Positions 19,959 through 41,330 of a DNA stretch of 42,418 bases are shown one piece after another; the first letter of the stretch is position 1; every line of letters begins with the position of its first letter. The position numbers and the translations under genes are program-made. Below the pieces are notes generated by a model. That model saw only the letters and a program-made list of their open reading frames with translations, was not told the DNA's origin and ran no database searches. This DNA comes from a virus: positions 1-42,418 of the IMG/VR virus record IMGVR_UViG_3300046018_000178; one strand, written 5' to 3'.

Positions 19959-19964
19959 ATGACC
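19946..19964. repeat. direct repeat AAATGACC at the leftward promoter
   Basis: AAATGACC occurs at 19946-19953 and again at 19957-19964, start to start 11 bases, so about one helical turn apart. The copies flank and overlap the -35 of the leftward promoter, as expected for a two-site operator. The binding protein is unknown. Confidence 0.45.
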
Positions 19965-20342
19965 GGACGGCGGGGAGCGGTCTTTAGATACGAACCGAGC
20001 CGCCGGGGCACACCGGCGGCCCGAGGACGTGCCGTCATATCGGAGCGGCGCGTTTCATCAATTCGGCCACGGCCGCGAGCGCCGTGGAGATTTGTCCGTC
20101 TCTCCGGACCGTCAAGCCTAGTTAAGGTCGGCTTTCGCCCCGTCATCCTATCCGCCCGCCCCGGTTCGCGTCAAGGGATCATTTCGCAAATCGCCCTTGA
20201 TTTTCGATTCAAGAATGAGAAAATGAATCTGTCGGACAACCCGTCTGTTAGCGGGCCGACGAAATGCACAACGAACTTCCCGGCGGCGGCAACCGATACG
20301 TCTAACAGCGATACCGGAACGCCGCCGGGCGGACATTCCGCG
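19965..20342. other. gap with GC-rich hairpins before endonuclease copy 1
   Basis: About 380 bases with no gene I can support; in-frame upward extension of the endonuclease exists but the homologous copy 2 starts at the position equivalent to 20343. It holds three stem-loops: GCCGCCGG/CCGGCGGC at 19999-20020 with a 6-base loop; a nested one around 20232-20260 (GTCGG/CCGAC enclosing CCCG/CGGG); and CCCGGCGGC at 20279-20287 pairing with GCCGCCGGG at 20321-20329, just before the start. CGATAC is repeated inside the last loop. Confidence 0.5.
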
Positions 20343-20945
20343 ATGCCAATTCAGAGAACGTGCGAAGAGTGCGGAAAGGCGTTTGAGTGCAATCCCGGCG
20401 ACGTCGCTCGCGGGTGGGGTAAAACTTGCAGCCGTATCTGTAAGAGCGCAGCCCAGGCCACGCACGGGAACCGCAAAACCCGTCTCTATGGGGTGTGGGA
20501 CAGTATGCGACAGCGGTGCTCCAACCCGAAAGCCGCTGGCTATGCGGATTACGGCGGACGGGGCATCACGGTTTGCCCGGAGTGGCAAGCCTCGTTCGTG
20601 TCCTTCCGCGATTGGGCAAACGCCAACGGCCTCCGCGACGACCTGGAAATTGACCGCATCGACACTGACGGAAATTACGAACCTTCGAACTGCCGCTGGG
20701 TGACGCGACAGCAGAATTGCATGAACCGCCGCAAGTACCGCAACAACAAGTCGGGATTCAAGGGCGTCAGCGTCAGTGGCCGCAAGTGGGAAGCCCAGAT
20801 TATGGCTAGAGGAATTGCCGAATATCTGGGTGCGTTCGCCACGCCCGAAGACGCCGCAAGAGCCTATGACAAGGCGAGCCTGCGATTGCACGGCGAATTC
20901 GGCATACGCAACTTTCCAGAAACCAAAACGGAGGAATCCCGATGA
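20343..20945 (+). CDS. HNH-AP2 homing-type endonuclease, copy 1
   Basis: 200 residues from ATG 20343. Residues 7-33 hold a zinc finger (CEEC at 7-10, C29, C33). Residues about 66-130 form the HNH-type nuclease (DYGGRGITVCPEW, then LEIDRIDTDGNYEPSNCRWVT at 101-121 read as LEIDRIDTDG and NYEPSNCRWVT), and 137-190 an AP2 DNA-binding domain (SGFKGVSVSG, AARAYDKASLRLHGEFG). Such free-standing nucleases spread by cutting alleles that lack them. Start chosen because copy 2, with the same 200-residue length, begins with the same MPI-RTC. The 3' end overlaps the next ATG (ATGA). Confidence 0.85.
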   Translation: MPIQRTCEECGKAFECNPGDVARGWGKTCSRICKSAAQATHGNRKTRLYGVWDSMRQRCSNPKAAGYADYGGRGITVCPEWQASFVSFRDWANANGLRDDLEIDRIDTDGNYEPSNCRWVTRQQNCMNRRKYRNNKSGFKGVSVSGRKWEAQIMARGIAEYLGAFATPEDAARAYDKASLRLHGEFGIRNFPETKTEESR

Positions 20946-25651: not shown

Positions 25652-25745
25652 GTTTTAGTGAAACTAAAACCGCAGAAAAGCGTCAAAAATAATGGCCGGC
25701 CGTGGTTGCAACCACGCCGGCCCGGCCGACGCGGAGTTCGTCGGC
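25652..25745 (+). other. tandem stem-loops before endonuclease copy 2
   Basis: Three hairpins in 94 bases: GTTTTAGT-GAA-ACTAAAAC at 25652-25670; GGCCGG at 25694-25699 pairing with CCGGCC at 25717-25722 and enclosing the perfect 16-base palindrome CGTGGTTGCAACCACG at 25701-25716; and GCCGACG/CGTCGGC at 25725-25745. On the minus strand the second stem is followed by ATTATTTTT, a leftward terminator-like layout. Copy 1 of the endonuclease is also preceded by GC-rich hairpins. Confidence 0.5.
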
Positions 25746-25801
25746 AACGCCATTCTACCGGATTCCGGCAGAGGCGTCTATCAAGCTCCCGGAGGCCTGG
25801 T

Positions 25802-26404
25802 ATGCCGATTTCAAGAACATGCGTAGTTTGCGGGGCGGGGTTTGAGACCAAGCCTTATCTCATTGCCCGAGGGTGGGGGAAGTTTTGCAGCAAGCCGTGC
25901 ATGGGCCTCGCGCAGGCCACGCACGGCGCGCACAAAACCCGCCTATACAACACTTGGGCAGCCATGCGACAGCGGTGCAGTAACTCGAAAGATGCCCGCT
26001 ATTCCAACTACGGAGAACGCGGCATTACCGTCTGTGCGGAGTGGCGGGAATCCTTCCCGACCTTTCGGGATTGGGCCTTGACCAATGGTTACGGGGAAGG
26101 CCTGGAAATCGACCGGCGTGACAACAATGGGGATTATTCCCCAGAGAACTGCCGGTGGGTTACGCGGTCTGAAAACTTGATGAACCGCCGGATGAACAGC
26201 AATAACACCTCGGGCTTCAAGGGCGTCAGCGCTAGCGGTGACAAATGGGAGGCCCGAATCGGGGCTAACGGTTCCAGCGAATACCTCGGCAGGTTCGCAA
26301 CTCCCGAAGCCGCCGCCCACGCCTACGATGAGGCGAGCATGAGGCTTCACGGCGAATTCGGCAAAAGGAACTTTGCCGATACGCTGGCCTGCTGCGCGGT
26401 TTGA
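25802..26404 (+). CDS. HNH-AP2 homing-type endonuclease, copy 2
   Basis: 200 residues from ATG 25802 with GGAGG upstream, identical in length and domain order to copy 1. Zinc finger CVVC at about 7-10 with Cys later; HNH region LEIDRRDNNG DYSPENCRWVT at about 101-121; AP2 domain SGFKGVSASG to RLHGEFG near the end. Copies 1 and 2 differ at many positions, so the duplication is old or they arrived separately. Followed 5 bases later by a perfect 25-base palindrome. Confidence 0.85.
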   Translation: MPISRTCVVCGAGFETKPYLIARGWGKFCSKPCMGLAQATHGAHKTRLYNTWAAMRQRCSNSKDARYSNYGERGITVCAEWRESFPTFRDWALTNGYGEGLEIDRRDNNGDYSPENCRWVTRSENLMNRRMNSNNTSGFKGVSASGDKWEARIGANGSSEYLGRFATPEAAAHAYDEASMRLHGEFGKRNFADTLACCAV

Positions 26405-26408
26405 CCCC

Positions 26409-26433
26409 AACTGTTAAGCGATGCTTAACAGTT
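26409..26433 (+). terminator. perfect palindrome, possible terminator or operator
   Basis: AACTGTTAAGC-GAT-GCTTAACAGTT: 11 perfect pairs around three bases, right after the endonuclease stop and followed by CGATTTTCGCCCG with four T. The stem is AT-rich for a terminator, so an operator is an alternative. Just downstream TTTACCC is repeated at about 26451 and 26461. Confidence 0.45.
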
Positions 26434-26483
26434 CGATTTTCGCCCGTTACTTTACCCGAGTTTACCCACTATAGAGGTAGAGG

Positions 26484-26698
26484 ATGCTGAAGACGTTTGC
26501 CTATCACAAGCCATCCGACGACGGACTTGCCAAGATCACCGAGTTGCGTGAAGGCTTTCTGTCCTCGCGGCTCTGATCGAAAATAACTGCCCCGGTTCCC
26601 GCGAAAAGTCGGTTGCCATCACCAACCTTGAAACGGCCGCAATGTGGGCAATCAAGGCCACGGTTTGCAACGATCCGAAGTCGGAAGTGACGACCTAA
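26484..26698 (+). pseudogene. frameshifted Acb2/Tad1-type cyclic-nucleotide sponge
   Basis: The family (anti-CBASS, anti-Thoeris sponge that sequesters cyclic nucleotide signals) is recognisable in two frames. From ATG 26484 (AGAGG 8 nt upstream): MLKTFAYHKPSDDGL then KITELREGF, ending at Phe25 (26556-26558). After one missing base the match continues in the other frame from 26564: LAALIENNCPGSREKSVAI then TNLETAAMWAIKATVCN, to the stop at 26696-26698. In the original frame a TGA follows at 26574-26576 after 30 residues. One base appears deleted between 26559 and 26563. No slippery heptamer is seen, so mutation or sequencing error is likelier than programmed shifting. Confidence 0.8.
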
Positions 26699-30973: not shown

Positions 30974-31374
30974 CCGCCGACTACGGCGGGCGCGGAATTA
31001 CGGTGTGCGCCGAATGGCGGGAATCCTTTGTCGCCTTTCGGGACTGGTCATTGGCCAACGGCTACAAAGAAGGTCTAGAAATCGACCGTAAAAAGAACGA
31101 TCAGGGATACTGCCCCTCGAATTGCCGGTGGGTTACAAGCTCTCAGAATAGCATGAACCGCCGGAAACAGCGAAACAACACCTCTGGGTTTAAGGGGGTT
31201 CGCGCTAAGGGCCGACGATGGATGGCTGAGATCCAGGCCGGTGGGGTTTATGAATATCTCGGCAGGTTCGACACGCCAAAAGAAGCGGCCGAAGCCTACG
31301 ACGCCGCGAGCGTTCGGTTGCACGGCGAGTACGGAATTCGGAATTTTTCAACATCAGGAGGAACGACATGTTAG
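30974..31374 (+). pseudogene. truncated HNH-AP2 endonuclease, copy 3
   Basis: Homology to copies 1 and 2 begins at ADYGGRGITV, the position equivalent to residue 68 of copy 1, so the zinc finger and the start of the HNH are missing. What remains is CAEWRESF, LEIDRKKNDQ, YCPSNCRWVT and the complete AP2 domain (SGFKGVRAKG to RLHGEYG). An in-frame GTG at 31003 could start a 123-residue remnant, but no good ribosome binding site precedes it. The stop lies inside csrA, which starts at 31368. Confidence 0.75.
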
Positions 31375-33528: not shown

Positions 33529-33810
33529 ATGACCCGCATTGAAAGATACCGCCGGGCGAACCAGGGGCCGGCCCCAACGCCAACCGCACCCACACCGGCC
33601 AAGCCAGGGACCGCCGCAAAATTGGCCGCAATGGCCGCGAGAGTAGAGGCCGGGGAAGGACTCTTCCATCCCCACGACGCCGGCCACGACGGAACCAGCG
33701 CGGCGGCGTTCGTGTCCCGGAAGGGCGCTTACCGGCGCGGCGTGCCGTCATCGCCCCGCGTGTTCGCGGTGCTGCTGACGGGGGACTATTCATCGGAGGG
33801 GGAATTGTGA
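33529..33810 (+). CDS. hypothetical protein
   Basis: 93 residues with AAAGGA before ATG 33529. Basic N-terminus (MTRIERYRRANQ), a Pro/Thr/Ala-rich linker, then a His/Gly patch (FHPHDAGHDGTS). The end overlaps the following GTG by 4 nt. No family recognised. Confidence 0.45.
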   Translation: MTRIERYRRANQGPAPTPTAPTPAKPGTAAKLAAMAARVEAGEGLFHPHDAGHDGTSAAAFVSRKGAYRRGVPSSPRVFAVLLTGDYSSEGEL

Positions 33811-34160
33811 GGGGGCTAGTCGCTTGCGAATTCCCTGGCACCGTCCGTGATGCGTTTGCCGCTCATGGGCACGACGCCTGGAGTTGCGACCTTTTACCGA
33901 CCGAACGGCCGGGGAAGCACATCACGGGCGACGTGCTGGCGGTCCTCAATGGGGGATGGGACTTGATGATTGCCCACCCACCATGCACTCACCTCGCGGT
34001 CAGCGGATCGCGTTGGTTCAACGAAAATTTGCCCACGGTTACAAGCAACCTCGCCAGCCTTAACGGCGTGTCGGGGCGGTTCAGCGAACTGAAAGCGGCC
34101 GGCCTTATCCGGCAGTTGAGCGAAGAGCGGGATAAGTGTGGGGTGTGGGTTTTGAACTGA
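33807..34160 (+). CDS. truncated cytosine methyltransferase fused to winged-helix end
   Basis: 117 residues. Residues 2-72 match the start of a phage DNA cytosine methyltransferase: LVACEFPGTVRDAF, GHDAWSCDLLPTE, GDVL, then the catalytic PPC at 58-60 (HPPCTHLAVSGSRWF). After residue about 72 the match stops; the last 35 residues (SGRFSELKAAGLIRQLSEE, GVWVLN) look like the end of a small winged-helix protein. This implies a deletion fusing two genes near 34020-34040. As a methylase it should be inactive. Unknown whether the fusion is expressed for its DNA-binding half. Confidence 0.65.
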   Translation: MRGLVACEFPGTVRDAFAAHGHDAWSCDLLPTERPGKHITGDVLAVLNGGWDLMIAHPPCTHLAVSGSRWFNENLPTVTSNLASLNGVSGRFSELKAAGLIRQLSEERDKCGVWVLN

Positions 34161-40552: not shown

Positions 40553-40641
40553 CACCCGCAGAATTGTCGTTCGCCTTCGCTGAACACCGGGAGGAATATG
40601 GCCGCATCGTGCAGGGGCGGAATGGGGGGATCGAATCGTGA
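40549..40641 (+). CDS. 30-residue protein
   Basis: ATG 40549 overlaps the previous stop; a GGAG lies upstream. Product FAFAEHREEYGRIVQGRNGG is short and charged. Stop overlaps the next GTG (GTGA), so coupling supports it. No motif. Confidence 0.4.
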   Translation: MTPAELSFAFAEHREEYGRIVQGRNGGIES

Positions 40642-41330
40642 AAGAGCGGCCGATTATTTTTAGCGGACCGATGGTCAAGGCCCTGCTTGCCGGGGCGAAA
40701 ACGCAGACGCGGCGGGTTGTCAAACCGCAACCCTACTGGCAGAAAGGCAAGGGTCTTGTTTCCCCAGGATGGGCGTGGAACATCGAGCCGAAGTGCAAAT
40801 TGCAAGCGTGGCCCGAAGATGGAATCGGTTCCCAGATGGCCAAATTTTGCCCCTACGGCATCGTCGGCGACCGGCTCTGGGTGCGGGAGGCGTGGAGCCA
40901 CGGAACGGCCCCAAACAACCCAAATGGAATCGCCGTATACTTGGTTTCTGGAAGCAGGGAGCAATTTGAGAAGGAATACGCAAAGCTCCATCCGGACGCG
41001 CCAAAAGAGTCCGCCGATTGGTGTCATGAGTGGGTCAACAAATCGCCGCTGTTCATGCCCCGATGGGCCAGCCGCATCACCCTCGAATTGACGGGCGTGC
41101 GGGTCGAGCGGCTTCAGAGCATCAGCATGGAAGACGCCAAGGCGGAAGGCGTTCTGTTCGACCCCCTGGAAAGCACCTATTCCGATGACAACCCACCCCG
41201 AAAGCGGATCGGCGGGCTACAGCGGCTGGTGGAATACAAAAAGTTGTGGGACAAGATCAACGGCAAGAAGCACCCGTGGGAATCGAACCCGTTCGTATGG
41301 GTCTTGGAATTCCGGAGGATCGAATCGTGA
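40638..41330 (+). CDS. ASCH/PUA-like phage protein
   Basis: 230 residues from GTG 40638. The N-terminal pattern ERPIIFSGPMVKALLAGAKTQTRRVVKPQ (read as ERPIIFSGPMVKALLAG and AKTQTRRVVKPQ), then GDRLWVREAW and LFMPRWASRITLELTGVRVERLQ (as LFMPRWASRI and TLELTGVRVERLQ), belong to a widespread phage family with a PUA-like fold, thought to bind RNA or modified nucleic acid. Exact role unknown. Overlaps the next gene by 4 nt. Confidence 0.7.
   Translation: MKERPIIFSGPMVKALLAGAKTQTRRVVKPQPYWQKGKGLVSPGWAWNIEPKCKLQAWPEDGIGSQMAKFCPYGIVGDRLWVREAWSHGTAPNNPNGIAVYLVSGSREQFEKEYAKLHPDAPKESADWCHEWVNKSPLFMPRWASRITLELTGVRVERLQSISMEDAKAEGVLFDPLESTYSDDNPPRKRIGGLQRLVEYKKLWDKINGKKHPWESNPFVWVLEFRRIES

Follow-up and report, generated by a model that had tools for sequence, protein, structure and literature searches.

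The window analysed here is the whole of a 42,418-base uncultivated virus record with the gene order of a tailed phage: terminase, portal, capsid/protease, decoration protein and tape measure are followed by an accessory region and then by replication and recombination genes (exonuclease, Sak4/UvsX-like ATPase, Holliday-junction resolvase, replication initiator and primase-helicase). In the accessory region, an HNH/AP2 endonuclease gene precedes a broken acb2-like gene (Table 1). The interval between these two genes contains a perfect inverted repeat, AACTGTTAAGC-GAT-GCTTAACAGTT, with 11-bp arms and a 3-base loop; it occurs once in the window and is not followed by a T-run.

Table 1. Features of the broken gene and of other loci discussed in the text
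Feature	Positions	Strand	Description and basis
Purine-rich ribosome-binding region GAGGTAGAG	26475-26483	+	Directly 5' of the start codon; read from sequence
Acb2/Tad1-family gene, 5' half, frame 0	26484-26576	+	30 codons, then TGA; translation
Acb2/Tad1-family gene, 3' half, -1 frame	26552-26698	+	48 codons, then TAA; PF24729 match
Damaged codon (one-base frameshift site)	26559-26560	+	Two bases against a full codon in relatives; alignment and codon listing
Inverted repeat	26409-26433		Between the HNH/AP2 gene and the broken gene
HNH/AP2 endonuclease gene preceding the broken gene	25658-26404		Longer paralogue of the HNH/AP2 remnant
Second longer HNH/AP2 paralogue	19959-20945		
HNH/AP2 endonuclease remnant	31003-31374		5'-truncated; phrog_374 positions 301-416
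DNA methyltransferase fragment	33807-34160		phrog_757 positions 18-100 of 247
Protein matching phrog_874	40638-41330		Match from profile position 65 onward only

Several other genes of the window are also incomplete. The HNH/AP2 remnant retains the C-terminal part only, with a stop just upstream, and the N-terminal part is absent in every frame, whereas both paralogues are longer. The methyltransferase fragment comprises the N-terminal ~90 aa, followed by a tail of unrelated sequence; a deletion could have produced such a fusion. The missing start of the phrog_874-like protein was not found in the two small ORFs upstream of it.

Read from its ATG, which is preceded by a good ribosome-binding site, frame 0 of the broken gene encodes MLKTFAYHKPSDDGLAKITELREGFLSSRL, 30 residues in all, before the TGA at 26574-26576. 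Reading in the -1 frame continues to the TAA at 26696-26698 and gives RLSVLAALIENNCPGSREKSVAITNLETAAMWAIKATVCNDPKSEVTT, with an overlap of the two frames at 26552-26573. Residues 1-25 of the frame 0 product align with relatives, the last five (LSSRL) being out-of-frame readings. When the gene is aligned with 117 distinct relatives, the damaged codon occupies a single, otherwise unremarkable column (S in 61%, K in 28%), and exactly one base is therefore missing. The first-pass annotation had described two halves in different frames with one base lost between 26559 and 26563; translation of both frames confirms the halves, and the alignment places the loss of a single base near the position it gave. 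The invariant residues R22, R40, T47, E50, M54, W55 and A56, as defined by the same 117 relatives, are all retained across the two halves, and there are no further stops beyond the frameshift. The full hairpin of a functional Acb2 is nevertheless not encoded by any single open reading frame, since its second helix is read in the -1 frame. A stretch of 48 open codons in that frame is unremarkable alone, being found at 51% of random positions and frames in the GC-rich DNA of the window; the evidence for a broken gene is the profile match.

This match was obtained with PF24729 (the Acb2/Tad1 hairpin of Pfam; cut-off 27 bits, profile length 58), and it bears out the family named by the first-pass annotation, which had also proposed searching both frames. 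The -1 frame half scores above the cut-off on its own (E 6.1e-11, 42.8 bits, profile positions 23-55 of 58), and the halves joined with an X at the damaged codon give 59.8 bits (E 3.1e-16, positions 1-55 of 58). The frame 0 half, too short to score, has no match alone; it adds 17 bits to the joined score and includes F-Y-H-P and R22, positions at which the relatives are conserved. Likewise, PHROG phrog_1454 matches the second half alone at 47.1 bits and the joined halves at 63.3 bits. The family profile is related to the solved 'Acb2 homolog 43' (E 2.6e-7, profile comparison), and a PF24729 search of the whole record matched at the broken gene only. On these sequence grounds, the broken gene belongs to the Acb2/Tad1 hairpin family, of which it represents a short, 71-aa form. 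A PPE identity for the second half was also considered and rejected (E 0.018, below the cut-off), the similarity being taken as a chance one between helical proteins.

Structure prediction for L007, the closest intact relative, rather than for the window copy itself, gave a helical hairpin model of two long antiparallel helices (residues 12-35 and 40-62; mean pLDDT 91.9). In a fold search of the PDB with this model, T4 Vs.4 with cGAMP ranked first (E 0.099) and Acb2 (8h2x) fourth (E 1.2), neither value being significant for so simple a fold. Other members of the Acb2 family form hexamers and bind cyclic di- and trinucleotides (PMC12043709). The window gene resembles Acb2 (anti-CBASS 2; T4 Vs.4, gp24 of PaMx33 and PaMx41) in its PF24729 match, in the hairpin predicted for its closest intact relative, in the aromatic and histidine residues near its N terminus and in the MWA motif of helix 2; it differs in being a 71-aa form rather than one of about 90 aa and in its interruption by a frameshift. 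With Tad1 (Thoeris anti-defence 1) it has in common the C-terminal hairpin motif SRE...LT..E.A.MW, but not the additional N-terminal beta domain of Tad1: the window gene begins 5 residues before the hairpin profile, and the L007 model has no such domain. The short Acb2-like proteins of Paenibacillus larvae phages (e.g. HEATH_54 of phage Heath) are of similar length and ~51% identical over residues 4-64; unlike the window copy, their genes are intact, and they belong to another phage and host. The Heath gene (positions 1980-2195 of that genome) is labelled 'putative phosphomannomutase', as are its counterparts in several other P. larvae phages, and this label is most likely a misannotation.

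Among IMG/VR phages, Acb2-like proteins of the short form are common and occur on unrelated backbones. A wider search of this collection yielded 157 relatives, of which the best 80 were kept; the two closest (62% and 57% identical) share with the window copy an MLK start and an end near NDP-S. The search for intact copies in related phages, another check suggested by the first-pass annotation, gave a uniform answer: all 80 of these best tblastn loci are intact. As such a list might favour intact copies, IMG/VR was also scanned with the C-terminal AMWAIKA DNA motif alone, and the gene proved intact upstream in 71 of the 71 family loci not cut by a contig end (62 distinct sequences). Within the collections searched, the break thus appears to be confined to this record. 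No near-identical contig with the same gene was found in IMG/VR with exact patterns of both halves or with the neighbouring genes, and no near-identical DNA in phage records; a search of plasmids for the gene returned two distant matches only. No match to the terminase of this phage was found in the records that bear 14 of the closest homologues and, reciprocally, the relatives of that terminase (L197-L201, several of which are fragments) had no match to the Acb2/Tad1 family. The acb2-like gene therefore probably moves between phage backbones, and a syntenic intact allele did not emerge.

The best explanation, to which we assign a probability of roughly 0.6, is that a short Acb2/Tad1-family gene was recently inactivated in this phage by a real one-base deletion; the weighting of such an event against a sequence error is a judgement and not a measurement. 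We infer a loss of function, a recent date and a deletion that is real rather than introduced in the consensus. By analogy with the known systems, an intact sponge would hold cyclic di- and trinucleotides and thereby keep CBASS effectors (for Tad1, also Thoeris) switched off. Translation from the normal start would end within the first long helix, and the resulting stub, which would have neither the second helix nor its invariant residues (R, T, E and MWA), should bind nothing. In T4 Vs.4 the residues Y8 and F82 are important (PMC12657218); here the break separates the N-terminal and C-terminal ends, and a stub of 30 residues is accordingly expected to be inactive. The retention of all seven invariant residues without a further stop fits a recent event, and the HNH/AP2 and methyltransferase remnants of the same accessory region, which arose by changes larger than one base and cannot be explained by a one-base error, favour real decay. 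There are also precedents for such losses. Wild-type PaMx41 carries a natural stop at codon 37 of acb2 (PMC10419184; PMC12043709), which its CBASS-resistant mutants read through (PMC10419184); this gene is likewise truncated in its first half, with the sponge restored by reversion (X37Q), but by a nonsense codon rather than a frameshift and in a cultured phage with tested function. In T4, acb2 was lost through frameshifts and other mutations in phages escaping Panoptes (PMC12657218). The window copy would be an ordinary broken copy of a well-known family, its cause being either mutation or a sequence error.

Against a real inactivation, breakage is rare in this family (seen in none of the 71 relatives), and in a single record a one-base consensus error would look identical. 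A serious, if less probable, alternative is an error of the metagenome consensus, in which case the natural gene would have all its bases and be unbroken. It would agree with the intactness of all the relatives found and with the undamaged state of the seven invariant residues and of the frame on either side, in a record that is one uncultivated virus contig. However, long homopolymers are absent (the longest run is 4 in the gene and 3 at the junction), and the long conserved genes of the contig (terminase, portal, capsid/protease, primase-helicase and exonuclease) showed no further one-base break, each aligning with its family over nearly its full length.

The first-pass annotation had proposed a third cause beside gene decay and sequence error, namely that the shift is programmed. 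A programmed -1 ribosomal frameshift joining the halves would provide a low-level working sponge, and both the direction of the shift and the overlap of the frames are as expected. We nonetheless regard it as very improbable: neither an X XXY YYZ heptamer nor a long homopolymer is present in the whole gene, folding of the RNA that follows the site is no stronger than that of shuffled sequences (z 0.15), and the relatives are all in one frame, with none of the 71 using such a shift. Decay and sequence error are thus the two causes that stand. A restart inside the gene was rejected as well, for the -1 frame has no ATG, GTG or TTG before 26642 and hence none ahead of the conserved SREKS...LETAA motif.

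If the deletion is real, it does not follow, as had been suggested, that the host population no longer uses such defences. The natural stop in PaMx41 acb2 and the T4 losses under Panoptes make this inference too strong: loss of acb2 can also be selected by Panoptes, which guards against sponges (PMC12657218), and a weak hint of Gemmataceae is all that points to the host. From a broken sponge alone, no reliable conclusion can be drawn on which defences the host population uses, and the locus is at most one more wild example of a phage losing a cyclic-nucleotide sponge. Within the preferred reading of a real inactivation, the loss may have been selected by a Panoptes-like guard system of the host that a functional sponge would set off; we consider this improbable. 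T4 escapes Panoptes by loss-of-function mutations in acb2, including frameshifts, and a comparable pressure in the wild has been proposed by the authors of that work (PMC12657218). One case cannot demonstrate selection, and the tie to a host is a terminase 40% identical to that of one Gemmataceae MAG. SMODS-type CD-NTase genes are a mark of CBASS. They occur in only 7 of the 95 genomes of the family of this MAG; this is suggestive only, but sponge loss may cost little there. A PADLOC scan of nine proteins gave methyltransferase-like matches only and no other defence-related proteins. The MAG contig with the related terminase is the only cellular relative found, and it is possibly a prophage.
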